This document shows positions 4-10,911 of a stretch of DNA of 64,000 bases, piece after piece. The position numbers were made by a program, and so were the translations under genes. Numbering within the stretch: position 1 is the first letter of the stretch; each line of letters begins with the position of its first letter. This stretch comes from Salinibacterium sp. G-O1 (GTDB taxonomy: Bacteria > Actinomycetota > Actinomycetes > Actinomycetales > Microbacteriaceae): assembly GCF_030063305.1 (NCBI RefSeq), contig NZ_JASISV010000001.1:682001-746000 (forward strand), in the 5' to 3' direction. Under the pieces are notes generated by a model. It saw only the letters and a program-made list of their open reading frames with translations. It was not told the DNA's origin and did no database searches.

Positions 4-930
4 GTGAGGCTGCGCTCTGCCAGAGGACCGCAATCGCCCGTGCCGCTCGCCGAGGTGGCAGCGGTGACACAGCGGCTCGCGGTGTTGCTGGCGGCCGGGG
101 TAACGCCGGCGTCCGCCTGGCGCCATGTCGCTGCATCCACCGGCTCGACCGTCGCGGCGAGGGTGGCGGCCGCCCGTGATTCAGAAACCGCCGACGCTGT
201 GGCCAAGGCGGCCTCGGGGCTCGACCCGCTCGAGAGCGGCGCGTGGCGTGGGCTGGCTGCAGCGTGGACAGTCGCCACTCGGGCCGGAGCGCCACTGGCC
301 CCCTGCCTCAAACGCTTCTCCCAATCGCTGCGCGACCTTGCCCAAACGCAGCGCGACTCGAAGGTCGCGCTCGCGGGGCCGATTGCGACGGCCCGAATGG
401 TCGTCGTGCTTCCCGCCGTTGGGGTACTTTTTGGCATGGTTCTGGGCTTCAACACCCTGGCCACGCTGTTCACGACGCCCATCGGGTGGGCCTGTCTCGC
501 CGTCGGCGGCATCCTCATCGCGGCTGCGTTGCGGTGGAACCGAAGCCTGGTGGCAAAGGCAAGACCGACCGATGCCACCCCCGGCATCGGCTGCGACCTG
601 ATGGCCATCGCCGTCAGCGGTGGCAGCTCCCTGGACAGCGCGCGGGCGATCGTTGACGAAACCGTGACGCGCTTTGCCCTTCCCGGTATCAGCGGTGTCG
701 ACGAAGTTCTCGAACTGTCACGAAGCGCGGGGGTGCCCGCCGCCGAGCTTCTGCACAGTGAGGCAGAAGAACAGCGCAGGGTCGCCACCGCACACGCACA
801 AGAAAACGCGGCAACGCTGACGGTGACGTTGATGCTGCCCCTCGGGTTGTGCATCCTTCCCGCATTCATGGTGCTCGGTGTCTTCCCGCTTCTGGTCACC
901 GTCATCTCGTCAACCGCAGGCACGTTCTGA
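4..930 (+). CDS. Type II secretion system F domain protein (TadB/TadC-like)
   Basis: Integral membrane platform protein of a Tad/Flp pilus or type II-like secretion machine, which couples the CpaF ATPase to pilin assembly. The 308-aa product has a soluble N-terminal T2SSF-like helical domain (about residues 15-115), two membrane segments near 132-151 and 160-177, a second cytosolic part, and a strongly hydrophobic C-terminal segment (about 275-302). It is the first gene of the locus continued by the DUF4244 and TadE-like genes at about 10.1 kb. The GTG at position 4 is used as start, but the window edge is too close to exclude a start further upstream. Assignment rests on domain pattern and context; TadB versus TadC is not resolved. 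Confidence 0.7.
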   Translation: MRLRSARGPQSPVPLAEVAAVTQRLAVLLAAGVTPASAWRHVAASTGSTVAARVAAARDSETADAVAKAASGLDPLESGAWRGLAAAWTVATRAGAPLAPCLKRFSQSLRDLAQTQRDSKVALAGPIATARMVVVLPAVGVLFGMVLGFNTLATLFTTPIGWACLAVGGILIAAALRWNRSLVAKARPTDATPGIGCDLMAIAVSGGSSLDSARAIVDETVTRFALPGISGVDEVLELSRSAGVPAAELLHSEAEEQRRVATAHAQENAATLTVTLMLPLGLCILPAFMVLGVFPLLVTVISSTAGTF

Positions 931-975: not shown

Positions 976-1671
976 ATGGCTGCGACACCCACGAGCACGA
1001 GCGACACCCTCATGCGTGACGTTCTGGTCTGGGATGTGCGCACCTGGTCTGTCGCCGTGGACCTGTGGGACACCGCACTTCCCCAGACGGAGTCGCCGCT
1101 CACGTGCCTCGAAATCGGCGCCGGACCGGGAGGACCGTCGCTCTGGTTGGCGCTGCGGGGGCACCACGTTGTCTGCTCCAACCTCGCAGACACCCGACTC
1201 CTGGCGGAGCCACTCCATGAGAAATGGGGAGTGACCGAGAACATCGAGTATCGCGATGTCGATGCCACCGCACTTCCCTACGAGAACCACTTCGATGTGG
1301 TGATCTTCAAGTCCGTGCTGGGCGGCATCGGGCAGCTGCAGGCCGAGGCGATGGCTCAGATTCTGAAAGCGCTCAAGCCCGGTGGACGACTTCTGTTCGC
1401 CGAAAACATCCGCGGCACAATTTTCCACCGGATTGCGCGATCGATCGCGTACAAGATCCGGGGATCGTCCTGGCACTACCTGACTCTGGCCCAAATGACG
1501 GCGCTGCTGGATGGTTTCTCGTCGGCGACGATTCACTCCCATGGGGTGCTGGCCATGTTCGGCACCACCGAAGTCAGACGCCAGGCGCTGGCGGCGGTCG
1601 ACGACCGGATCCTGAATCGCATCACACCACGGTCGTGGAAATACGTCAGCTACGGCGTCGCCACCAAGTAG
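976..1671 (+). CDS. Class I SAM-dependent methyltransferase
   Basis: 231-aa protein with a Rossmann-type SAM-binding fold. Motif I reads LEIGAGPGG at residues 45-53, followed by an acidic loop (residues about 90-97) and a post-motif with LKPGGRLLF typical of this superfamily. The substrate cannot be told; the C-terminal half resembles small-molecule or lipid methyltransferases. It lies between the T2SSF gene (44 bp upstream) and the interrupted DUF4244 pilin gene, on the same strand, an unusual position inside a Tad cluster. It may be an insertion unrelated to pili or may modify a pilus or envelope component; nothing in the sequence decides this. The start ATG at 976 gives a complete domain. 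Confidence 0.8.
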   Translation: MAATPTSTSDTLMRDVLVWDVRTWSVAVDLWDTALPQTESPLTCLEIGAGPGGPSLWLALRGHHVVCSNLADTRLLAEPLHEKWGVTENIEYRDVDATALPYENHFDVVIFKSVLGGIGQLQAEAMAQILKALKPGGRLLFAENIRGTIFHRIARSIAYKIRGSSWHYLTLAQMTALLDGFSSATIHSHGVLAMFGTTEVRRQALAAVDDRILNRITPRSWKYVSYGVATK

Positions 1672-1788: not shown

Positions 1789-1947
1789 ATGACAAAGCTG
1801 GCGAAACTGCTGCACGACAAGGTGCTGCACGATGAGGAGGGAGCGGCGACCGCTGAGTACGCCATCGCGACGATGGCAACTGTTGGACGTTTAGGGCGTA
1901 CTTCAGTGGGCGTAAAGGTCACCGAAAGCGCGTTCAAGGGCGATTAG
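1789..1947 (+). pseudogene. DUF4244 Tad pilin-like gene, 5' fragment cut by the integrative element
   Basis: The first 30 codons encode the start of a DUF4244 protein: a short basic leader, then EEGAATAEYAIATMA, the Flp/TadE-type region with the conserved Glu and Ala-rich start of the hydrophobic helix. After codon 29 (ATG at 1873) the reading frame enters element DNA, encodes 23 unrelated residues and stops at 1945-1947. The missing transmembrane half lies at 10080-10187 in the expected frame. Joining both at ATGGC gives a 63-aa protein of the usual DUF4244 size. The truncated product lacks the membrane helix and is unlikely to function as pilin. Confidence 0.88.
1871..1890. other. attL junction
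   Basis: Host DUF4244 sequence ends in ...GCGACG, then the shared core ATGGC (1873-1877), then element sequence AACTGTTGGACGT. The GTTGGACGT at 1882-1890 is the inverted partner (one mismatch) of ACGTCCGAC at 10070-10078, so the two arms would face each other across the core in the circular form (attP). Very short identity between the sites is normal for large serine integrases. Confidence 0.8.
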
Positions 1948-2331
1948 GTGCAGCATTGCTCCTCGTCGCACGCCTGCCATTGGGTGCTTAGCGTGGTAGC
2001 GGAAGACCATCACTTTCTTGTCATCGCCGACCACCGCGGGCAACGTCATCTTCAGTTGGTCGACGGGAATCATCTCGAAACCTAGTTGGTACTTCCCGGA
2101 TGTTTTGATGTCGGCCCAAGTCATCGACGCCAGCGACTCAAGCACAGCCGCAAAGGATGCCTTTTGATCCTTCGACATCTTCCTTTGTTTCACCCCGAAT
2201 TTCGGGTCGAGATGCTGCAGGCAAAATGTCGGATGATGCGACTCGTAATCGGGGGGTGAGTCGTACGGGAGGGTCCGATCACCGAAATCCGGTCGTACCG
2301 ACGGTGCCGTTTTGTCAGTTCCGCGAGCCAA
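1903..2331 (-). CDS. Putative toxin partner of the DUF4065 (Panacea) antitoxin
   Basis: 142-aa protein encoded 3 bp downstream of the DUF4065 gene, so probably co-translated, with a TTG start at 2331. A later ATG (Met52) is possible, but the preceding residues (FCLQHLDPKFGV, then KMSKDQKASF) look like conserved domain rather than noise. The C-terminal part, with VMVFRYH, MAGVRRG and the terminal FGDLYAH, resembles compact RelE/ParE-like or related toxin folds in layout. No family is recognised with certainty and catalytic residues cannot be assigned. A toxin role is inferred from pairing with a Panacea domain, which is known to accompany diverse toxins. Its stop lies 26 bp inside attL. Confidence 0.6.
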   Translation of the reverse strand: MARGTDKTAPSVRPDFGDRTLPYDSPPDYESHHPTFCLQHLDPKFGVKQRKMSKDQKASFAAVLESLASMTWADIKTSGKYQLGFEMIPVDQLKMTLPAVVGDDKKVMVFRYHAKHPMAGVRRGAMLHLIALERAFGDLYAH

Positions 2332-2334
2332 CGA

Positions 2335-2811
2335 TCAGACCGGTCGCGCTTCAGACCAAAGGCTTCCGAAATAACGCTCCAACGCTGCAGTGGGAATTGT
2401 GGTCTCCCTGACCCCGTCCTGGTAGGTGTCCTTCCAAGGAGCTTCGTTGTGCGTCATCTCACGAAGAGCCCAAGCGCTGCGCGCGCCGTGCGTCTTCCAG
2501 ACCGCTGCGAGCCACCCCGAGGTATCCCTGTCGATGCTGGAGAAGTCAAACTCGTCCTCGAACTCGATAGCGTTGCTGCCGAATTTTTTGAACTCGTGAT
2601 AGACCGCAGGGACTACAGGCCCGTGGCCCCATGCCTGAATTGGGTCCCCAAACAGCGGATTCCCATCGTGGTTAGCAATGTAGTGGCCCTGGGCGTAGTA
2701 GAGCAGCTTTTGAAGTTTGAGGTTCGAAATAACGCCTTCTTCATCGAAGCGCGCCCAAGCAAGGAACCAACGCGCGATCGTGGAGGCTTCATATGGTGCT
2801 GCTGTAGTCAT
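2335..2811 (-). CDS. DUF4065 (Panacea/SocA-like) antitoxin-type protein
   Basis: 158-aa protein with the classic DUF4065 layout: LKLQKLLYYAQGHYI at about residues 31-45, then FGDPIQAWGHGPVVPAVYHEFK in the middle, and a helical C-terminus. Panacea domains act as antitoxins or chaperone-like neutralising domains for varied toxins, and SocA/GepA-type proteins are phage-associated. A clear ribosome-binding site (AGAAGGTG) lies about 7 nt before the ATG at 2811. It is the first gene of a two-gene unit with the 142-aa protein downstream. Position beside attL, at the end opposite the integrase, is typical of a cargo or stabilisation module. Confidence 0.85.
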   Translation of the reverse strand: MTTAAPYEASTIARWFLAWARFDEEGVISNLKLQKLLYYAQGHYIANHDGNPLFGDPIQAWGHGPVVPAVYHEFKKFGSNAIEFEDEFDFSSIDRDTSGWLAAVWKTHGARSAWALREMTHNEAPWKDTYQDGVRETTIPTAALERYFGSLWSEARPV

Positions 2812-2969
2812 GGGAGTTCACCTTCTCGTGGGTGGCTGTGGGTGAGGTGGCTGGTCGGTGGCGTTTCCCAGCGAAGGTTTCGGCGTCCTGTTCGAAGGAA
2901 CCGTGCATAGTTCAGTTTATTCCTGTACCACTCCGAGGCTAGCCCCCAATTGGGCGCGTTGGATACCAG

Positions 2970-3089
2970 CTAGACCAGCGACAGCCCGCACTCCGGGCAC
3001 CTCCAGGCGATCCCGAGCCGTTCGCCGGTCGGCTCCATCCTCACGAGGCAAGCCGGACAATTCGGGGTGTCGAGGTCGTCGAGGTCCAT
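2970..3089 (-). CDS. 39-aa zinc-ribbon micro-protein
   Basis: A short frame with two CPxC knuckles: TPNCPAC at residues 8-14 and RCPEC at residues 30-34, spaced as in a treble-clef or zinc ribbon. Translation starts at ATG 3089, preceded by GGAGG 11 nt upstream, and ends at TAG 2970-2972. The protein is MDLDDLD followed by the two Cys pairs and ends GLSLV. Micro-zinc-ribbons of this kind are common in actinobacterial mobile elements, but the function is unknown. Its strand and position, between the terminator at 3143-3179 and the Panacea pair, suggest a separate transcript. Confidence 0.6.
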   Translation of the reverse strand: MDLDDLDTPNCPACLVRMEPTGERLGIAWRCPECGLSLV

Positions 3090-3142
3090 CCGGCGATCAT
3101 CCTCCGAACCCGTCCCCACGCGAGCGAGTTCTCCACAGCACG

Positions 3143-3179
3143 AAGAAACCCCCCGGTATCCACTACCAGGGGGTTTCTT
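3143..3179. terminator. Bidirectional intrinsic terminator
   Basis: Perfect 11-bp inverted repeat, AAGAAACCCCC at 3143-3153 and GGGGGTTTCTT at 3169-3179, with a 15-nt loop. The A/T-rich outer stem lets it act in both directions. It closes the minus-strand operon 3264-7298 and separates it from the zinc-ribbon and Panacea genes. Confidence 0.75.
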
Positions 3180-3263
3180 GTGTCGGGGTCCGGTCCCATC
3201 TCAAGGCATGGACCGCCGACATTGGCCGGACCCCGGGCTCGTCAAAGCGGGGTCCGGAGCTCG

Positions 3264-3485
3264 TTAGTCGCCGTAGGCGGGGCCGCTGTCCCGTCTCGGG
3301 CGGCTCGCCCTCTGGCGGCGGAGGGCGATCAAGTCGACTTGCTTCTCGGAGGCCGAGCGCGGGTCGGCGTTGACGGCCTCGCGTGCCGCTTCCACTTCGG
3401 CGAGCCGACCGAGGCGGCGCATTGCGCGATCGTCACGCTCGCGTGCCTCGTTGAGGGCCTCTATTTGTTTCTTCGTAGTGTTCAT
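3264..3485 (-). CDS. Small charged hypothetical protein of the element
   Basis: 73-aa, highly charged and helical protein (starts MNTTKKQIEALNEA) with no recognised domain. The start at ATG 3485 is supported by AAGGAG 7 nt upstream. It is the last gene of the minus-strand operon and ends about 85 bp before the strong terminator at 3143-3179. The open frame continues upstream of this start, but that extension is low-complexity translation of the neighbouring gene and is not supported. Function unknown. Confidence 0.55.
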   Translation of the reverse strand: MNTTKKQIEALNEARERDDRAMRRLGRLAEVEAAREAVNADPRSASEKQVDLIALRRQRASRPRRDSGPAYGD

Positions 3486-3538
3486 GGTGTTCTCCTTCGG
3501 ATTCGGTTGGGTGGGTTGGTCGGCGGTTCCGCTCGCCT

Positions 3539-4150
3539 CTAGTCGTCGTCCTCGTCGTCGCCGTAGTAGCTCGACACGCTCCACGCCCGAGGGCGTCGGG
3601 CTTGGCGACGGAAGGGGGAAACCGGGGCAAGCCCGGAAACTTCTCCCTCGTGCCCCTTCTCCGGCTCCGGGGTGTCGCCCCCTACCGGGAAGGCCTTGAC
3701 GGTGTCCGGCTGGACGGGGAGCACCGGCTCGCGCCAGGGCGAGGCCGCTAACTCCGCGTTGATCTTCGCCCCCCACTTCTCCAGCCGGTCCCGCATCTTC
3801 TTCGACGGCTTGGTCGGCTTCGCGTGCCTCGCCGCCTGGACCTCTCCGGCGAGCGCGACGGCGTCCGCGTCGGTCAACGGGGCCGGGGCTGTGATCGGCT
3901 CACCACTGGCGAGGAGGGCGCGCTCGCGGCGGAGAGCCTTCTCCCCCCGGCGGAGGTTCCACTCGGCCTCGTGGAGCCGGAGACGCTCGTCGCGGTTGAG
4001 CTCCTCGTAGCGCTCGCGGTCCCGGACGACCCCGAGTCGCGCCCCGGCGAGGATGCTCCCCATGAAGGCGTTCTCCTCGATCTGCTCGTCCCGCCATGCC
4101 GCGTTACGGATCGCCGCTCTCGGGTTGTCTTGTCGAATTGCTCTAGGCAT
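3539..4150 (-). CDS. Hypothetical element protein, charged helical N-terminus and acidic tail
   Basis: 203-aa protein of unknown function. Residues 1-100 are rich in Arg/Glu and probably helical or coiled coil. The middle contains a lysine-rich patch (KPTKPSKKMRDRLEK) and the end is a disordered tail finishing YGDDEDDD. Start ATG 4150 overlaps the stop of the HTH gene by 8 nt (ATGCCTAG), indicating translational coupling. The longer frame upstream is a shadow of the HTH gene. Position after a small-terminase-like gene suggests a DNA- or packaging-related partner, but no domain supports this. Confidence 0.6.
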   Translation of the reverse strand: MPRAIRQDNPRAAIRNAAWRDEQIEENAFMGSILAGARLGVVRDRERYEELNRDERLRLHEAEWNLRRGEKALRRERALLASGEPITAPAPLTDADAVALAGEVQAARHAKPTKPSKKMRDRLEKWGAKINAELAASPWREPVLPVQPDTVKAFPVGGDTPEPEKGHEGEVSGLAPVSPFRRQARRPRAWSVSSYYGDDEDDD

Positions 4151-4529
4151 CTTGTGCTCCGTTCGGAATGTCGAGCCCGAGGAGCTTCGAGCGCTGCGCC
4201 TCGGTCTTGAGAATGAGTGAATAGATTCCGTTTCGGATCGTCTGGGAGGACGCGAGGCGGAGGTCGTCGTTGAGGCGGCGGAGAACGTCGTCGAGGCGGT
4301 CCTCGACTTGTGCCCGGAGCTCCTCGGCCGCCTCGGCGGACAGGCGAGCGTATGCCAGGGACGCGAAGCTCTGCGCCTGCCAACCGGATACCCCGAGGGA
4401 CTCGCCGATCGCCTCGTAGCTGTGACCCTCCCGCCGCATGACAAGAGCCTTGAGGACCTTCTGCCCGTCCTCGGAGACCCCGGCGGGGGCGAGGACGACC
4501 GTGCTCGAAGTCTTCTTGTTCTTGCTCAC
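4143..4529 (-). CDS. HTH protein resembling phage small terminase subunit
   Basis: 128-aa protein. Residues about 20-65 form a helix-turn-helix (GHSYEAIGESLGVSGWQAQ), followed by a long helical stretch ending in SLILKTEAQRSKLLGLD. The arrangement of an N-terminal HTH plus helices ending in an R-x-KLLGLD-type motif is common in phage TerS proteins and related element proteins. TerS recognises pac or cos DNA. No large terminase gene is present, so if this is TerS it would act on a helper's packaging machine, as in PICI-type satellites. An alternative is an ordinary DNA-binding regulator. It overlaps the upstream gene by 4 nt (ATGA). Confidence 0.55.
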   Translation of the reverse strand: MSKNKKTSSTVVLAPAGVSEDGQKVLKALVMRREGHSYEAIGESLGVSGWQAQSFASLAYARLSAEAAEELRAQVEDRLDDVLRRLNDDLRLASSQTIRNGIYSLILKTEAQRSKLLGLDIPNGAQDA

Positions 4530-5140
4530 AGCGCACGCAACCGATTGACGATCACGTCGAGGGCGTGGTCGAAGCGTTGGATCGCCTCGTCAAGCTGGAC
4601 CCGGCCCTCGCCCCACTGAGCCGTGACGTGCCCGTAAGGGAGGTCGGCGGGAGCGAGGAGCTCCAGCACCCCCATGCTCGTCTCAAGGGAGGCGTACTGG
4701 AGTTGCATCTGACGGAACGCGAGAGCCAGCTTGTCGCGGGCGAGCTCGGCGTCTTTGCGGCACAGCTTCTGCCACTGGACCTTGTGGGCCGGGATCGACT
4801 CCCGGAACGCCGAGTGAGCCTGAGCGAGCACGAGCCTCCCCGGCTGGAGCCGCGCGTTCGCCTTCTTGAGCTCAATCTCGGCGAGGGTTTGGAGCTCAGT
4901 GGGGTCGTGGTCGGCGTCGTCCTTTCCTTCCTCGTAGAGGGCGGCTGTGCGCGCCTCGTCGGCGCTCTGAGCGTCAAGGAGTGCCCGCTCCGCGAGGGCA
5001 AGCCCCTGCCCGTTGCGGACAGTGCGGTCGTAGGCATCCACGAACGCCTGGAGGCGCTCCTTGATCGCCGGGATCGGAACGTCCGCCGGAGCGGGTCCCG
5101 AGTAGTTGATATTGAGGTCTCGGTCGATAATTTGGATCAT
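4526..5140 (-). CDS. Hypothetical element protein, coiled-coil rich
   Basis: 204-aa protein of unknown function. It begins MIQIIDRDLNINYSG and is then almost entirely helical with heptad-like patterns (for example about residues 60-100 and 120-150), suggesting a coiled coil or oligomeric protein. There are no cysteines in a zinc arrangement, no signal peptide and no membrane segment. It starts 27 bp after the RepA-like ATPase gene with AAAGGCAACC-type SD sequence nearby, and overlaps the HTH gene start by 4 nt. Co-transcription with a RepA-like ATPase is the only clue to its role. Confidence 0.6.
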   Translation of the reverse strand: MIQIIDRDLNINYSGPAPADVPIPAIKERLQAFVDAYDRTVRNGQGLALAERALLDAQSADEARTAALYEEGKDDADHDPTELQTLAEIELKKANARLQPGRLVLAQAHSAFRESIPAHKVQWQKLCRKDAELARDKLALAFRQMQLQYASLETSMGVLELLAPADLPYGHVTAQWGEGRVQLDEAIQRFDHALDVIVNRLRAL

Positions 5141-5167
5141 TTTGGGTTGCCTTTCGTTGGGGATGGG

Positions 5168-6706
5168 TTAGAGGTTGTCGGCGTCGAGTTCGAGACCGGG
5201 GGCGAGCGTGTACCTGGAGCCGTTCAGGACGACCTTCCCGGTCTTGTGGAGGGCGTTCATTGCGTCGTAGGACGTTTTGCGGTTCATGCCGCCCTCAATG
5301 AGAAGGTCACGCCACTGGACGCGGGTGGAGCCGCCCTCTGAGAAGGCCGAGATAAAGGTCCCGAGCGCGACCTCGACCGACGGGGCGAGACGTGCCGCGT
5401 CGGTGCCGCCGCCTCCCGAGCCTTGGATGATCGCCGAGTCGCCGCGCTTCACGATTTCGAGAGTCGCGATCGGCCCGCTCACCCCGTCTTTGGATTTGAT
5501 CGTCTCGAACTTGATCGAGGGCGACTCCCCGCTCAGGCTGTGGATTTGGTCCATTGCGCCTCGGAGGGCGGAGCTCCCTCGGAGGTCGCCGCCTTTACCG
5601 AGGTGATGAACGAGGACAATCGAGGCGCCTCGGCGGGCCTTGCGGATCGTGTCGGCGGCGGCGATGACGACGGACATACTCGTCGCGCTGTTTTCTTCGA
5701 GCCCGGGAGAGACCCTCGCGAGGGTGTCCACGACGATGAGGTCGATCGCGTTGTCGGTCACGAACCGAGCGAGCTCCTCAACGTGGGCGGAGTTGCCGAA
5801 GTCGGGCGCCGTCGTGAGAAACGTGAGAGCGCCCTCCGGGAGGGTCATCTTCCATGCGTCCTCGACGGCGCGGAGCCGGGCGCCGAGACCGGCCTCGCCC
5901 TCTCCGGCGATGTAGAGGACCTTTCCCTGTTGGGCCTTGCGCCCGAGAACCGTCCCGCCGCTCGCGACGGCGACCGACTCAAGGAGCGCCAGATGGGTCT
6001 TGCCCGCGCCGGGGTGACCGGCGAGCATGATCGTGCTCGCCTTCGGGATGATGCCCTCGACGTGCCACTCGTTGACGGGCATATCCGCGAGCTCGTCGCT
6101 GGAGAGCATCATCGAAGCGAGCGAGGGCAGACCGGCGGCTTCTTCTGCCCGGGCGCGTCGCAGACCCTCGCGGAGTGCGATCTGACGCTCCATCGACTCA
6201 TTGGCGAGGCGGTCGCGCTGCGAGTTGTGATCGAGCTCTAGGCGCTTCGCGTTGTCCTCGTCGCGAGCCGTGCGAGAGCGGACCTTCCGAGCCTCTACGG
6301 CGTCCTTCCAGATTCGGGCCACGACCTTGTCAGGCAGGCGATCGATCCCGGCCTCGACCTGATCGGACTCGAAGCGCCGGAGGGCCTTGAGCGCGCCCTC
6401 CTTGCTCGTGGCGGTCTCGACGAGGTTGTCGGCCTGGAGTTCGAGCATGAGGCGCGAGATACCGAAGTCGGGCGAGTCGTAGTCCTCGGACCCGCCCGGT
6501 CCCCGTTGCTGGGCACGAGCGGCCGAGAGGAGGTCCGCGACAGTGAAGTCTGAACCGCTGGAGAGACCGGCTTCGTCCAAGAGACGCCGGAGCCGCGCCT
6601 CACGCTCTGGGGCGAGGTTGTCGGCCCCGCTCGGGACCTCGGCGAGGACTTGAAGCGCGAGGGCGTCACAGGCCGCGAGAGCGTCGACGGGTTGGTCGTC
6701 GCTCAC
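5168..6706 (-). CDS. RepA-type AAA ATPase (hexameric replicative helicase family)
   Basis: 512-aa protein. Walker A is GHPGAGKT at about residues 230-237, Walker B LIVVD near 323-327, followed by the RepA/DnaB-like motif VLVHHLGKGGDLRGSSALRG near 364-383. These identify the AAA_25/RepA superfamily found in plasmid and phage replication proteins. The C-terminus (about 445-505) looks like a winged helix (TRVQWRDLLIEGG, then NRKTSYDAM). A primase module is not obvious in the N-terminal 200 residues, which are helical and charged. It overlaps the upstream gene by 4 nt. It is the best candidate for the element's replication helicase, probably acting at the repeat region near 7.6-7.8 kb. Confidence 0.82.
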   Translation of the reverse strand: MSDDQPVDALAACDALALQVLAEVPSGADNLAPEREARLRRLLDEAGLSSGSDFTVADLLSAARAQQRGPGGSEDYDSPDFGISRLMLELQADNLVETATSKEGALKALRRFESDQVEAGIDRLPDKVVARIWKDAVEARKVRSRTARDEDNAKRLELDHNSQRDRLANESMERQIALREGLRRARAEEAAGLPSLASMMLSSDELADMPVNEWHVEGIIPKASTIMLAGHPGAGKTHLALLESVAVASGGTVLGRKAQQGKVLYIAGEGEAGLGARLRAVEDAWKMTLPEGALTFLTTAPDFGNSAHVEELARFVTDNAIDLIVVDTLARVSPGLEENSATSMSVVIAAADTIRKARRGASIVLVHHLGKGGDLRGSSALRGAMDQIHSLSGESPSIKFETIKSKDGVSGPIATLEIVKRGDSAIIQGSGGGGTDAARLAPSVEVALGTFISAFSEGGSTRVQWRDLLIEGGMNRKTSYDAMNALHKTGKVVLNGSRYTLAPGLELDADNL

Positions 6707-7146
6707 GAGGTGGGCTCCGGGGGGCGGGCGGGACGGGAGTTGAACGCCGCGTTAACCCGGCGTGCCTGATCGACGCGGAGAAGGAACACGGCCTGTTGGC
6801 GGCGTGCCGTGGTCGAGAGCTCCGGCCATTCCTTGTCGACTTGCTCGAAGTAGCTCTCCAGGTCGGCGGGGGTGAGCCCGGCTCCAGAGTCGGTCGCGGT
6901 GACCTTGCGACCACGGCGGACGAGGCCAAGGGTTCTAAGCTCCTCCTCGACAACCTCGGGGGCGGTGCCCTTCTTCGCCGCCTTCTTGCGGTACTTCGCG
7001 ATGAAGTCGGCCCGGAAGGGCTCCTCCTTTTCCAGCTTGGCTCGCTTAGCCGCGTTCGCTTTCGCGCTCCGGGCTTCCCGCTGAGCGGGCGTCATGCGAG
7101 CGGCGGCGGCGAGGCCCCCTTTACGTCCCGTCTCGGCGTCGAACAT
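6703..7146 (-). CDS. Hypothetical basic element protein
   Basis: 147-aa protein of unknown function. The first 60 residues are Ala/Lys/Arg-rich (GRKGGLAAAARMT, then AKANAAKRAKLEKEE), suggesting nucleic-acid binding. The middle is a predicted small globular part with PADLESYFEQVDKEWPELS, and the end is Pro-rich. The start ATG overlaps the stop of the preceding 50-aa gene (TGATG), and the end overlaps the RepA-like ATPase start by 4 nt, so it sits in a tightly coupled translation unit. It may be an accessory replication protein, but this is context only. Confidence 0.6.
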   Translation of the reverse strand: MFDAETGRKGGLAAAARMTPAQREARSAKANAAKRAKLEKEEPFRADFIAKYRKKAAKKGTAPEVVEEELRTLGLVRRGRKVTATDSGAGLTPADLESYFEQVDKEWPELSTTARRQQAVFLLRVDQARRVNAAFNSRPARPPEPTS

Positions 7147-7298
7147 CAGCGAGCACCCCCGCCGAGCAGCGTCGAGAGACGGGAGGACTGTGCGCCTGAG
7201 AGTCGAGGGGCACAGTCGACGACGCGAGAGACAGCGTCGCTGTCTGACGAGGCGGACCCCTCGGCTGCTTCTGAGGGGGTTTGGTAGCGGTCGAACAT
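7146..7298 (-). CDS. 50-aa leader gene of the replication operon
   Basis: Small frame beginning MFDRYQTPSEAAEG and ending RLSTLLGGGAR, with the stop TGA overlapping the next ATG as TGATG. An AAAGGG sequence lies about 8 nt before the ATG at 7298. The C-terminal pattern (APRLS, then one short helix ending in an L-L-G-G tail) resembles small proteins in other actinobacterial elements. No function is known. It marks the 5' end of the minus-strand operon reaching to 3264, whose promoter should lie in 7299-7400. Confidence 0.5.
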   Translation of the reverse strand: MFDRYQTPSEAAEGSASSDSDAVSRVVDCAPRLSGAQSSRLSTLLGGGAR

Positions 7299-7624
7299 GG
7301 CGGACCCTTTGCGGATCGCCGTTCTAGTGGCTAGCTGAATTTACAACGGTCACCCCGAGGGGGCATTTCTTACGGGTGTTCATTCCGGACCGGTACGCCT
7401 CAACAGAGGCGAGCAAGACCAAGGTACCACCGAAAGGCGGGTGTCGACCTTGCGTACCCCCGTCTTTCCGGGGATTTTCGGTTATCTACCAAGCAGGCAA
7501 GCCCGGAAACTGTTGGTTGTCTACAAAGGGTGTTGTCGGTCCTGTTCTTGGTCCTCGATCCCCCTTCTATGCCTGTGCCGTCACCGTCACGTCTCACCTC
7601 CCCCTATAGGGGGGGGGAGGAGAG

Positions 7625-7777
7625 GGTGACGACCTAGGTGACGACCGTCCGCACTCTTCCGCACTTTCCCGGAAACATGCGGAATCTGGAGGGTGACGAC
7701 CAAGGTGACGACCGTTACACGGGTAGGTGACGACCTAGGTGACGACGACCCAAAATCACCAAGGTCGAAGGTGACGA
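7625..7777. repeat. Iteron-like GGTGACGACC repeats
   Basis: Copies of GGTGACGACC begin at 7625, 7637, 7692, 7704, 7726 and 7738 (last base changed), with a shorter GGTGACGA at 7770. Each pair is separated by TA or AA, giving an exact 12-bp period within pairs, so two proteins would bind roughly on the same DNA face. Confidence 0.8.
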
Positions 7778-7892
7778 ATTCCAAGCTGGATAGACCTCCT
7801 GTAGAGGCAAGGGACCCCGCTCGGGAGCTCGGACCGGGACCGGGACCCGGAGGGGAACTGCTAGGGCTCGTTACCCTATTCGTCCCCAGCGC

Positions 7893-7936
7893 CCGCGCAC
7901 GCCCTCGGACCCTCCCGCGCACGCCCTCGGAACCTC
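7893..7936. repeat. 22-bp tandem duplication
   Basis: Two adjacent 22-bp units (7893-7914 and 7915-7936), starting CCGCGCACGCCC and differing at one base (GGACC versus GGAACC). Located in non-coding DNA between the iteron-like repeats and the 61-aa gene. Confidence 0.7.
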
Positions 7937-8020
7937 CCACGAACCGACACGGAGCCCGAGGAAGAGCCTGATTGACCTCGATCTGGACCCGTTCAATTAC
8001 GCCCGCCGTCCGTTCGCGGT

Positions 8021-8046
8021 CGCCGTCGTCATCCGGGCGTAGAGGG
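8021..8046. repeat. 26-bp direct repeat, left copy
   Basis: Starts CGCCGTCGTCATCCG and ends GTAGAGGG; identical to 8288-8313. The two copies bracket the 61-aa gene at 8102-8287, giving a 267-bp repeat period. Confidence 0.8.
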
Positions 8047-8101
8047 TGGCGGCGGTCGACCGTATTGTGAGGCGTACAACCCACGAGAGATTGGACACAA
8101 C

Positions 8102-8287
8102 ATGGCAACTAAGCACGAGGCAGAAGCTGCGCTCTACACCGCGATCGCGAAAGTAACCGAAGACCTGGAAGCGGAAGGTGTCCGTTCACCGGGTCGCGCA
8201 AAGGCACTTGAATCACTCGCACTCGCATACCGATACGTCTTGGGCGGACCGCAACCAGGGGGAAGTTCCGGCTCCCGCGCGGAATAG
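8102..8287 (+). CDS. 61-aa hypothetical protein between direct repeats
   Basis: Small helical protein (MATKHEAEAALYTAIAK at the start, then a helix with ALESLALAYRYVLGG) on the strand opposite to every other gene of the element. There is no strong Shine-Dalgarno; GGACACAAC precedes the ATG. Short proteins with an A-L-x-x-L-A-x-A-Y pattern recur in actinobacterial phages and elements, without known function. The gene is enclosed by perfect 26-bp direct repeats (8021-8046 and 8288-8313), as if it were a removable or duplicated cassette. It lies between the candidate origin and the 3' end of the integrase gene. Confidence 0.5.
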   Translation: MATKHEAEAALYTAIAKVTEDLEAEGVRSPGRAKALESLALAYRYVLGGPQPGGSSGSRAE

Positions 8288-8313
8288 CGCCGTCGTCATC
8301 CGGGCGTAGAGGG
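8288..8313. repeat. 26-bp direct repeat, right copy
   Basis: Perfect copy of 8021-8046. It begins right after the stop of the 61-aa gene and ends 5 bp before the integrase stop codon. Confidence 0.8.
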
Positions 8314-8318
8314 AGCCG

Positions 8319-9794
8319 CTATTCCTTCCACAGAATGTCGGTCGTCGAGGCCATGCGCTCCATCGTCTGCGAGCGCCCTCCCTGGCCGACAGTGTGGACG
8401 ACTACGGTCATGAGGGTTTCTAGGACGGCGCGCTTCCGAGCGAGCGAGAGGCCCTCCCAGAGCGCGGCCACGTCGACGGCGTCGACTATGTCCCCGAGCA
8501 CGTCGACGCGTCCCGCCTCGGTCATCTGGGAGTCGATCGCCGCGAGCTTCTCTCGTAGCGACCGGATCGAGGCGCGGGCGTTCTCGGTCGTGAGGGTGCC
8601 GTCTGCCACGAGCTCGACGACACTGTCGAGGCGGGCGGACAGGGCGAGGCGCTCGGCCCGGAGGGCGTCGGCGTCGGGGCGGTCCTTGTCGAGGAGGAGC
8701 TCGACGGCGTCCGGGCGGGAGAGCCGCTCGACGATGACGGACTCGACGAAGCGGTCCAGCGGGTCGCCCCGCCTCATGAAGTGCGCCATAGAGCGGCACC
8801 GGTACGAGTGGATGCCAGCCTCGCCGCCTCCGGCCCTCACGGGCTCGTAGCAGACCCCGCACACGGCGAGGCCGGAGAGAAGCCACTTCCGGGCCACCTT
8901 GCCCCCGTTGTCGCGCCGTCCGCCGTTGCCGAGGACCTCCTTCGCCGCGAGCCACGTCTCCTCGCCGACGATCGCCTCCCACGCGCCCTCGACGCACTGA
9001 TCGCGAGTGATCGTTTCCTGGTCGTAGGTTCCCCACCCGCCCTCGGGAGGCGTCGGTAGGAGCGCCGCGTAATACGGGGAGAGAAGAATCCGTCGGACAG
9101 TGGTCGGCCGGAATGGCACGCCCTCGGGGTGATTCTTGTACGGAAGGGTTCGGCGTCCGCGTTCGTTGAGGTCCCGAGCGATCGAGCCGAGCGGCACTCC
9201 GGCGAGGAACTGCTCGAACATGAGCCGCACGTCCGCCGCTCGCTCCTCGTCGAGCTCGTAGGCCTGGACGGTGCCGCGCTCGGCCCGCTCCTTCGTCGAC
9301 ACCCATCGGTAGCCGTATGGCACGCGGCCCGAGGTGGGGACTCCCTTGGTGCGCCGGTCGCTATTGGCGAAGACTCGACGCTCTGCCTTGACCTCGCTCT
9401 CGTTGCGAGCGACGGCGGTAAGCACGTTGGCAATGAGCCGCCCGGACGGGGAGGCGAGGTCGACCTCGCCGTCTGTGGTGACCGTGGCGACCTTGGCGGC
9501 CGTGAGCGCCTCCAGAGCCGACAGGGAGCGCCCGAGCCGGTCGAGCTTGCGGACGATTAGAACGTCGAACTTGCCCGCCCTAGCGTCCCCGAGCATCCGG
9601 TCGAACGCGGTCCCCTCGCCGCGCGCCTTGTATCCACTGACATTGTCGTCGACGTAGCGCTCGACGACGGGGTAGTCGCGGGAGGCGGCGAGAGCCGTGC
9701 AAGCCTCGATCTGCCGGTCGATCCCGAGAGGCTCGGCGACGGATTGGCGGGCGTAGATTGCGGCTCGTAGCGGCGCGGGGTTCTTCGTACTCAT
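8319..9794 (-). CDS. Large serine recombinase (integrase)
   Basis: 491-aa protein. The N-terminal resolvase/invertase catalytic domain has the nucleophile Ser18 in YARQS and the arginine-rich VRKLDRLGRS motif. Next comes a recombinase domain (about 165-280: GRVPYGYRW, DLNERGRRTLP, RRILLSPYYA), a zinc-ribbon domain with CGVC near 327-330 and a later Cys, and a C-terminal coiled-coil region. This is the phiC31/Bxb1-type architecture that integrates at short att sites without accessory proteins. The start at ATG 9794 overlaps the stop of the 86-aa gene (ATGA); an upstream in-frame start at 9860 lies inside that gene and is less likely. It is responsible for insertion into the DUF4244 gene. Confidence 0.93.
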   Translation of the reverse strand: MSTKNPAPLRAAIYARQSVAEPLGIDRQIEACTALAASRDYPVVERYVDDNVSGYKARGEGTAFDRMLGDARAGKFDVLIVRKLDRLGRSLSALEALTAAKVATVTTDGEVDLASPSGRLIANVLTAVARNESEVKAERRVFANSDRRTKGVPTSGRVPYGYRWVSTKERAERGTVQAYELDEERAADVRLMFEQFLAGVPLGSIARDLNERGRRTLPYKNHPEGVPFRPTTVRRILLSPYYAALLPTPPEGGWGTYDQETITRDQCVEGAWEAIVGEETWLAAKEVLGNGGRRDNGGKVARKWLLSGLAVCGVCYEPVRAGGGEAGIHSYRCRSMAHFMRRGDPLDRFVESVIVERLSRPDAVELLLDKDRPDADALRAERLALSARLDSVVELVADGTLTTENARASIRSLREKLAAIDSQMTEAGRVDVLGDIVDAVDVAALWEGLSLARKRAVLETLMTVVVHTVGQGGRSQTMERMASTTDILWKE

Positions 9795-10051
9795 GACTCG
9801 TCTTCGTCGTCCTCGTTGAGGGCATCTAGCGCCTGCGCGCCAATAAGGGCGAGCCTGCACACGGCTTCATGGTCCGCAGTGCGCAATACGGCCAACGCTG
9901 CCTCATCGCCCGCGTGACTCCACACGTCTTTAGACGCGTTCGCGTCGTACTGTTTCTCGAATGCGGCGTACGAGGCGTTGTTCGCCTCATGAGCAAGCGC
10001 CATGGCGAGATCATCGGGGCGGTTCCGGAGGGAGTCGATATCATCGTTCAT
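9791..10051 (-). CDS. 86-aa acidic protein coupled to the integrase
   Basis: Small acidic helical protein (MNDDIDSLRNRPDDLAM at the start, DALNEDDEDES at the end) encoded between attR and the integrase, with a 4-nt overlap to the integrase start. No family recognised. Translational coupling to a serine integrase and location at the extreme end of the element make it a candidate regulator or recombination directionality factor, although known factors are very diverse and this is inference. The ATG at 10051 is 28 bp from the att core, so its promoter must change between integrated and circular forms. Confidence 0.6.
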   Translation of the reverse strand: MNDDIDSLRNRPDDLAMALAHEANNASYAAFEKQYDANASKDVWSHAGDEAALAVLRTADHEAVCRLALIGAQALDALNEDDEDES

Positions 10052-10069
10052 GCCCCAATACTGCCTTAT

Positions 10070-10084
10070 ACGTCCGACCATGGC
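10070..10084. other. attR junction
   Basis: Element arm ACGTCCGAC (10070-10078), one base, then core ATGGC (10080-10084) leading into host codons GCG GTG GGA TTC of DUF4244. With attL it defines the element ends and gives a reconstructed attB inside the pilin helix codons. Confidence 0.8.
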
Positions 10085-10187
10085 GGCGGTGGGATTCGCA
10101 GGTCTTCTGGTCGTGATCATGCGATCAGATGAGGTGCGGGGGATGCTCACCGACATCATCCGCACGGCGCTGTCGATTCCGGGATGA
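10080..10187 (+). pseudogene. DUF4244 Tad pilin-like gene, 3' fragment
   Basis: Encodes the rest of the DUF4244 protein: MAAVGFAGLLVVIMRSDEV (the hydrophobic helix and following charged turn), then RGMLTDIIRTALSIPG and a TGA at 10185-10187. It has no Shine-Dalgarno of its own and is separated from its 5' half (1789-1877) by the element. The stop overlaps the ATG of the TadE-like gene (ATGA), showing the original operon coupling. In the present state, coupling from the pilin to tadE is broken unless the element excises. Confidence 0.88.
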
Positions 10188-10543
10188 CCGCCCGGGCTCG
10201 CGGCAGGCGACGCGCACGCGATGACGGCGGCAGCGTGACCGCAGAGTTCGCGGTGACGATGCCGGCGGTCATCCTGTTGCTCGCCTGCTGCTTGTCTGGC
10301 GTGCAGGTGGCAGCCCAGCAATTGCGATTGCAGGATGCCGCGGCCTCCGCCGCACGCTCCCTCGCGCGGGGCGACTCGGCGGCCGCCACGGTCGCACGTC
10401 TGGAGCCCGGCGCCAGCGTCACCGAGCGCTCGGATGGTGAGCTCGACTGCGTCACGCTCACGACCCGATCGACCGGCGTCGTGGGGGTCATCGGAGGATT
10501 CACCTTGGCGGCCAGCAGTTGCGCACTCGGCGGGGGCAGGTAA
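10184..10543 (+). CDS. TadE-like pilus assembly protein
   Basis: 119-aa protein with a short basic N-terminus, then DDGGSVTAEFAVTMPAVILLLACC, the TadE/pseudopilin signature (G-S-x-T-A-E-F followed by a membrane helix, about residues 15-40), and a small periplasmic domain with two cysteines. TadE-like proteins are minor pseudopilins needed for Tad pilus assembly or secretion. The start ATG overlaps the DUF4244 stop and the stop TAA overlaps the next ATG. Actinobacterial versions sit beside topA and a helicase, as here. Confidence 0.82.
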   Translation: MTARARGRRRARDDGGSVTAEFAVTMPAVILLLACCLSGVQVAAQQLRLQDAAASAARSLARGDSAAATVARLEPGASVTERSDGELDCVTLTTRSTGVVGVIGGFTLAASSCALGGGR

Positions 10544-10911
10544 TGCGGAGACCAACGGTGCGGGTGCTGCGCTCAGACGCCGGGGCCGGGTCAATCCTTT
10601 CTGTCGCGATCATCGGTGCCGTCACGGCTCTCACGATGATGCTCGCACCTCTCTATATAGGAGTCATGGCGAGACGGACGGTTGCCGGGGCGGCGGATGC
10701 CGCGGCGCTCGCCGCGGCAGACACCGCCATCGGAAGAGTGCCGGGCGTGCCGTGCGACGCCGCGGCCGCCGTCGCTGGCGCGAACGGCGCATCCATCGTC
10801 TCGTGCACGGTCGATGGGCTGGTCGTCTCCGTCACTGCAGAGAGGATGGTGCTGGGGATTTCTGTGACCGCAGCGGCGACGGCTGGCCCCGCCGACTCAA
10901 CTGTGAATTAG
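10543..10911 (+). CDS. Small secreted/membrane protein of the Tad locus (TadG/Rv3654c-like)
   Basis: 122-aa protein with a basic start, then SDAGAGSILSVAIIGAVTALTMMLAPLY, a pilin-like G-S-x-x hydrophobic segment (about residues 11-40), and an Ala-rich extracytoplasmic remainder with one Cys pair. It matches the second TadE-like protein of the actinobacterial helicase/secretion neighbourhood. It starts within the stop of the tadE-like gene (TAATG) and is the last gene of the locus before topA, 81 bp further on. The DEAD/DEAH helicase often found here is absent. Confidence 0.7.
   Translation: MRRPTVRVLRSDAGAGSILSVAIIGAVTALTMMLAPLYIGVMARRTVAGAADAAALAAADTAIGRVPGVPCDAAAAVAGANGASIVSCTVDGLVVSVTAERMVLGISVTAAATAGPADSTVN

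Follow-up and report, generated by a model that had tools for sequence, protein, structure and literature searches.

How does a mobile element come to lie within the coding sequence of a pilus gene, and does its presence there serve the host, the element or neither? The question is raised by a stretch of 64,000 nucleotides from Salinibacterium sp. G-O1 (contig NZ_JASISV010000001.1; G000:C1:682001-746000), here called the window, whose coordinates are used throughout. In it the DUF4244 pilin gene of a Tad pilus locus is interrupted after codon 29 by an element of 8,207 bp (counted GC to GC) that carries a large serine integrase. An initial annotation of this DNA likened the arrangement to regulated-lysogeny switches, in which a phage-like element controls a host gene, the pilin and its coupling to the downstream tadE being switched off while the element is integrated. 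The answer favoured here, which we hold to be reasonably probable, is that the element is one of a group of serine-integrase elements that target DUF4244 and disrupt it with possible precise excision, loss of transformation being a possible gain, and that it is not an evolved host switch. The features on which the argument rests are these:

1789-1875, plus strand: the 5' 29 codons of the DUF4244 gene with the Flp-type motif G/AATAEY; the frame continues for 23 codons beyond the junction and then stops (52 amino acids (aa) in total)
1876-1877: left crossover dinucleotide GC, where the host 5' half is joined to the integrase-distal arm of the element attachment site attP (placed by attP dyad symmetry in 12 genomes)
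1878-10082: the inserted element, delimited by comparing its junctions with intact relatives; it shares six genes with a Labedella element, colinear but inverted
8319-9794, minus strand: large serine integrase with its ATG at 9794 (PF00239, 87 bits; PF07508, 48.6 bits; phrog_95, 7e-87)
10083-10084: right crossover dinucleotide GC (attP dyad symmetry)
10083-10187, plus strand: the 3' 34 codons of DUF4244 plus stop, codons 30-63 (PF14029 positions 22-54, 47.4 bits)
10184-10543, plus strand: TadE-like protein whose start overlaps the pilin stop (PF07811, 31.2 bits)

Joining the flanks gives a DUF4244 frame of 63 aa that matches PF14029 with 78.5 bits (cut-off 27), and its stop (10185-10187) overlaps the ATG of tadE (10184-10186); on both the split of codons 1-29 and 30-63 and this overlap the initial annotation was right. 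A PF14029 profile search across the whole genome found no intact copy, only two part-matches of 47.4 and 24.8 bits. DUF4244 exceeds the cut-off in all 60 genomes of a search of relatives (own genome included). In the present genome and in G020 it appears solely as a pair of part-matches at the break; G016 and G039 each combine an intact match with an additional partial match. The closest intact gene among 30 fetched loci, that of G017 (L022), is 92% identical over 53 aa with no indel, hence the joined frame is not due to chance. G017 lacks the insert and has an identical gene order, down to a methyltransferase gene that separates tadC from the pilin, which upholds the earlier description of a site-specific element inside a Tad pilin-like gene that is intact in related genomes. 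The joined protein has the size (63 aa), the processing site (G/AATAEY, of the form G/XXXXEY) and the position between tadC and tadE of a Flp/Tad-type pilin, in a locus ordered T2SSE, T2SSF, methyltransferase, DUF4244 and TadE; the processing motif and gene order are as described in PMC4322843. By motif, size and gene order DUF4244 is a small Tad/Flp-type pilin, predicted to assemble into a pilus.

The place of recombination can be narrowed to two bases. The sequence ATGGC at which the initial annotation joined the halves is indeed common to both junctions (1873-1877 and 10080-10084), but it was rejected as the crossover itself because the dyad symmetry of attP favours the GC within it (1876-1877/10083-10084), the longer repeat being partly coincidence. 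Wherever both halves were joined (12 genomes), fusion at the GC of an Ala codon that follows T-M/L (codon 30 in the present gene) gives an uninterrupted frame to the end of the gene with identical spacing, which agrees with the claim that excision would restore the gene exactly, as predicted from these joins. Across the 12 genomes the attP dyad peaks at GC, with a mean of 10.9 of 20 matches; the means for 16 other even centres range from 4.2 to 5.9, and odd centres do not exceed 6.7 of 19. The total of 131 compares with 69.5 +/- 6.4 for shuffled sequences, and none of 2000 shuffles scored as high. A weight matrix trained on 24 attP arms defines an outer motif. It scores best at -25 in 17 of these arms and at -20 in all 12 left arms of the host site attB; since the 12 attB are homologous coding sequence, they amount to little more than a single observation. 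From attP to attB the motif moves 5 bp towards the centre, an inward shift that has been described for the zinc-domain motif of the A118 integrase (PMC3783163). In attB it reads AGTACGC or nearly so and coincides with the codons of Glu-Tyr-Ala in the pilin G/XXXXEY site. The marks of a large serine integrase site, a dyad with a 2-bp core and an inward shift of about 5 bp, are present in attP and in the left arm of attB. The protein itself has a Resolvase catalytic domain followed by a Recombinase domain (PF00239, PF07508), as large serine integrases do, with a zinc ribbon match of 16.5 bits that is under the cut-off of 25.3; its reading frame is open and it is predicted to recombine attP with attB.

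The element has entered either way round. The integrase lies toward the 5' half of the pilin gene in seven insertions (parallel) and toward the 3' half in nine (antiparallel), a distribution that needs at least four changes on the integrase tree. Both orientations are what a palindromic GC core predicts, and orientation is known to depend on the central dinucleotide (PMC3783163). The present element and that of Labedella endophytica, whose integrases are 78% identical, stand in opposite orientation; their six shared genes are inverted together with their order kept, showing that the whole element is turned. In four of the seven parallel insertions (L043, L048, L068 and L061) 3 nt separate the end of the truncated pilin frame from the integrase ATG, whereas two others differ and one (G714) gave no result; such a spacing could couple integrase translation to pilin expression.

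Insertion at this codon is recurrent. The own integrase was searched against 297 genomes of the order and 398 of the family (E <= 1e-60), and the integrases of G113 and G346 against 396 order and 394 class genomes respectively (E <= 1e-70), the genome samples overlapping. The resulting family set comprises 33 genomes with integrase, including G020, found by its integrase (L044); loci L043 and L044 come from the same genomes as G424 and G020 and each is counted once, and L045 (Nocardioides sp. GY 10113), with 32% identity over part of the integrase, was left out. Sixteen of the 33 integrases accompany a DUF4244 gene cut at one codon: the gene is present in two halves in 12 of the first 21 genomes, and in four more the half next to the integrase, the one looked for, is present. 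The halves are approximately 7.9 to 42.7 kb apart in the 12 measured genomes, and in 11 of these the integrase lies within about 0.2 kb of one half, the exception being G113 with 4.25 kb. The other nine of the first 21 genomes include eight with an intact DUF4244 elsewhere and one, G288, with none. The insertions are scattered: of the 60 genomes compared in the search of relatives, two carry one, and the integrases of these two share just 62% identity. On the tree the 16 DUF4244 integrases together with that of G521 form a clade with a support of 100/99; the root is weakly supported. G016 carries a 56-nt direct repeat (89%) of the 5' part of the pilin (L047:2490-2585) that ends exactly at GC and is followed at the right distance by the attP-arm motif (by eye), with an intact DUF4244 1.77 kb downstream (L047:4216-4416). 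This arrangement looks like the remnant of an old insertion, next to a pilin gene that still works.

The other members of the family are found in a related set of genes. comM is the site of 9 of the 17 non-DUF4244 integrases and is entered with the integrase on either side. Five adjoin a comM truncated in its C-terminal domain, where Mg_chelatase_C ends at position 70-74 of 94, and one (G175) lies at a different place within the gene. In the remaining three (G320, G346 and G030) the integrase abuts a short 3' comM stub, recognised by its residues and not by family search, which is followed by dprA; dprA was considered as the target and rejected since it merely follows the stub, and these cases are counted as ComM. 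In G914 a T2SSE ATPase gene of the TadA type is cut at profile position 183 of 370, the name resting on domain and sequence reading with one half seen. Altogether 26 of the 33 integrases lie in Tad or transformation-associated genes (16 DUF4244, 9 ComM and 1 TadA-type). The control consisted of 30 listed loci of the general integrase family phrog_95 in 199 genomes, minus the family members L163 and L164; none of these 28 lies beside DUF4244, none beside ComM and one beside a TadA-type gene. A distant serine integrase in G161 (L172), 23% identical to the own integrase, is likewise beside a TadA-type ATPase gene, as in G914. That ComM is the older target of the family is only an inference.

The carriers differ widely. 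For the large elements the scan covered open reading frames (ORFs) predicted by a simple caller, with a minimum length of 110 aa. G113 (36 of 39 such ORFs) encodes a TrwC relaxase, a type IV secretion system coupling protein, MmeI restriction and SIR2/STALD domains and looks like an integrative and conjugative element (ICE), with single phage-type matches to an endolysin, a tape measure and a minor head protein among the 25 of 40 PHROG families listed. The integrase-side halves of G112 and G192, scanned together (23 of 24 ORFs), hold type I restriction and Abi genes, and G224 (21 of 23 ORFs) has MobA/MobC with a MobA-type relaxase, ArdA and GmrSD genes. Several element types thus have one integrase lineage in common. 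What recurs is the insertion of diverse elements into Tad or transformation-associated genes by related integrases, a pattern of the comYC and comM type.

The proposed explanation is that the integrase has its recognition site within the DUF4244 gene. The sequences show recombination at the palindromic GC of the Ala codon, insertion either way round, and flanks whose rejoining at GC would restore the pilin exactly. While integrated, the element would inactivate the pilin, as we infer from the 52-aa product of the 5' half, which keeps the processing motif and loses the hydrophobic helix. The element may gain, on weaker grounds, in two ways. Its site, covering the codons of the pilin Glu-Tyr, is nearly invariant, and loss of the Tad pilus would lower natural transformation, a means for hosts to rid their genomes of inserts. 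Tad/Flp genes are required for transformation in Micrococcus luteus (PMC4322843). The family members in comM fit this reading, and the 26 of 33 integrases in Tad or transformation genes compared with 1 of 28 controls favour disruption of Tad-dependent DNA uptake over an evolved host switch. A tentative extension, possible although we would not call it probable, is that the integrase lineage shifted its target from comM to the Tad pilin, that DUF4244 pili are the DNA-uptake pili of many actinobacteria and that the elements are specialised, reversible transformation blockers working in either orientation.

A switch resembling regulated lysogeny, in which the element leaves and returns under control and toggles the pilin and tadE to the benefit of the host, would account for the exact restoration of the frame in all 12 joins, the open integrase frame and, through possible coupling, the 3-nt spacing in four of seven parallel insertions. 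The assembly holds neither an attP junction nor an intact gene as traces of the excised state, however, and the insertions are scattered (2 of 60 genomes, their integrases 62% identical). Nor is the orientation fixed (7 as opposed to 9), and there is therefore no conserved wiring to the pilin promoter. The regulated switch of the initial annotation is accordingly judged unlikely, and the loss of translational coupling to tadE that it included is not supported either, as in-frame ATGs at 10080 and 10050 precede the DUF4244 3' half. Somewhat less doubtful, though still improbable, is the idea of a neutral safe harbour, according to which DUF4244 is merely conserved, non-essential and near-universal in the hosts and its loss brings the element nothing. 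The presence of DUF4244 in 60 of 60 genomes, the overlap of attB with strongly conserved codons and another Flp pilin in the own genome all agree with it, but it does not lead one to expect that the family also occurs in ComM and a TadA-type gene, a single transformation/Tad theme seen in 1 of 28 controls. The element could also profit from removal of the Tad pilus as a receptor for pilus-specific phages, and in favour of such superinfection exclusion some carriers have defence-like genes and pilus phages exist for other Tad systems. The targeting of ComM by related integrases is left unexplained by it, and we regard it as very unlikely.

Several observations weigh against the preferred reading, disruption of the pilin with loss of transformation as the gain. 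In the right arm of attB no outer motif stands out clearly, and the dyad symmetry of attB scores 8.75 at GC compared with 9.42 at a centre three bases off. G714 and G778 match the 5' half only weakly (E ~3e-5 and ~4e-5). The G521 integrase (L070, at 9080) is joined by a very short branch to the DUF4244-targeting integrase of G224, yet it sits elsewhere and its DUF4244 is intact. It is one of seven integrases outside these genes or at unclear sites (G129, G288, G521, G058, G858, G916 and G986): that of G129 is at the end of a hydrolase-hemerythrin ORF, G058 and G858 have rhodanese and DUF6326 nearby with no likely target by Pfam among the adjoining ORFs, and the neighbour of G986 has no Pfam match. 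The control is small, with about 1.5 kb of flank and one bacterial family, while the 33 span a wider range. The role of DUF4244 in pili and transformation in this organism is putative. The own genome has a second Flp pilin gene (G000:C2, L129:12379-12651; PF04964, Flp_Fap, 55 bits) and five T2SSE ATPase matches above the cut-off in all, and given this second locus and the further ATPases other pili may compensate. The choice of target may also go back simply to a site that is conserved and dispensable. The genome has a ComEC-family gene, but the same family also matches in E. coli.

The closest known parallel is provided by streptococcal prophages in the competence pilin gene comYC, which abolish transformation and have been read as escaping removal by transformation (PMC4774983, PMC12637031). 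Like these, the DUF4244 elements are recurrently inserted, by related integrases and at an orthologous place in several genera, in the major pilin gene of a DNA-uptake pilus, here a putative one. The comYC insertions are prophages with a documented transformation defect, whereas the present carriers are small or ICE-like and IME-like (integrative and mobilizable), the target is of the Tad/Flp type and the case is known from sequence alone; the palindromic GC core and the two orientations also set it apart. According to Durrant et al. 2022 (PMC10083194), DNA competence genes are strongly over-represented among the genes that large serine recombinases target, and 12.4% of the predicted site-specific recombinases go to a Mg-chelatase/ATP-dependent protease gene. 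The present family resembles that set in having serine integrases in competence genes with the Mg-chelatase-like ComM as a major target; as far as drawn on here, that paper names neither DUF4244 nor a Tad pilin, though its supplement may list DUF4244. In Acinetobacter, comM insertions are comparable in that a gene for transformation is knocked out by chromosomal elements, many of which carry defence systems, but they are largely Tn7-like AbaR islands with a different recombination chemistry (PMC11472951). The gerE/gin system shares an element inside a coding gene with exact repair on excision; there host-physiology-linked excision is reported, while here the repair is read from the joined halves (PMC5595907). 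Literature searches on DUF4244, on serine integrases with Tad pili and on active lysogeny in pilins found no Tad pilin described as a target. The theme of serine recombinases that favour competence genes is thus known (PMC10083194), and what may be new is limited to the DUF4244 Tad pilin as a variant of it.

Gene-interrupting elements with exact repair on excision are also known from comK and sigK/skin, where excision is tied to host physiology. In the literature cited here, as far as it was drawn on, actinobacterial natural transformation is tied experimentally to Tad/Flp pili only in Micrococcus luteus. The repeated breaking of DUF4244 by diverse elements, together with the related integrases in comM, hints from an independent, evolutionary side that DNA uptake is a function of this pilus in many genera. 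With their natural palindromic core and both orientations, the 16 insertions also allow orientation choice and excision directionality to be tested.

The remaining features of the element and its surroundings are as follows:

4-930, plus strand: TadB/C-like membrane protein (T2SSF) of the Tad locus (PF00482, 54.5 bits)
976-1671, plus strand: methyltransferase gene between tadC and pilin (PF08241, 46.2 bits; similar gene at the same place in G017)
1903-2331, minus strand: 142-aa ORF adjoining the Panacea protein, a possible toxin partner by position only (no Pfam match)
2335-2811, minus strand: SocA/Panacea-domain antitoxin-like protein (PF13274, 73.9 bits)
3539-4153, minus strand: 204-aa ORF with a relative in the G424 element (27%)
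4143-4529, minus strand: 128-aa helix-turn-helix-like protein (phrog_645, labelled 'Rnase E'; relatives in the G424, G435 and G020 elements, 45-54%)
4526-5140, minus strand: 204-aa ORF with relatives in the G424 (37%) and G435 elements
5168-6706, minus strand: AAA_25 ATPase, replicative helicase/primase-like (PF13481, 118 bits; phrog_906, 1.7e-45)
6703-7146, minus strand: 147-aa element ORF with weak matches in G424 and G020
8102-8287, plus strand: 61-aa ORF with 50% identity to an ORF of the G020 element
9791-10051, minus strand: small ORF overlapping the integrase start, without family match; a directionality factor only as a guess
10543-10911, plus strand: next ORF of the locus, TadE/G-like by position only (no Pfam match)

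This gene content does not bear out the term phage-like. Pfam and PHROG scans of the element proteins gave no virion structural or packaging gene, the best phage integrases are about 32% identical and the viral contigs searched hold no close relative, for which reasons a phage origin was rejected. A search for plasmid relatives gave no match, defence genes in the element are limited to two weak PADLOC matches (E 0.0025 and 0.0072), and there is no evidenced candidate for a directionality factor among its genes. At the end of the element the Panacea-type antitoxin and the 142-aa ORF (1903-2811) form a possible toxin-antitoxin pair. Upstream of the pilin, a perfect 10-bp inverted repeat with a 2-nt loop (1701-1722, by eye) lies 66 nt before the start codon and may be a terminator or a regulator site.

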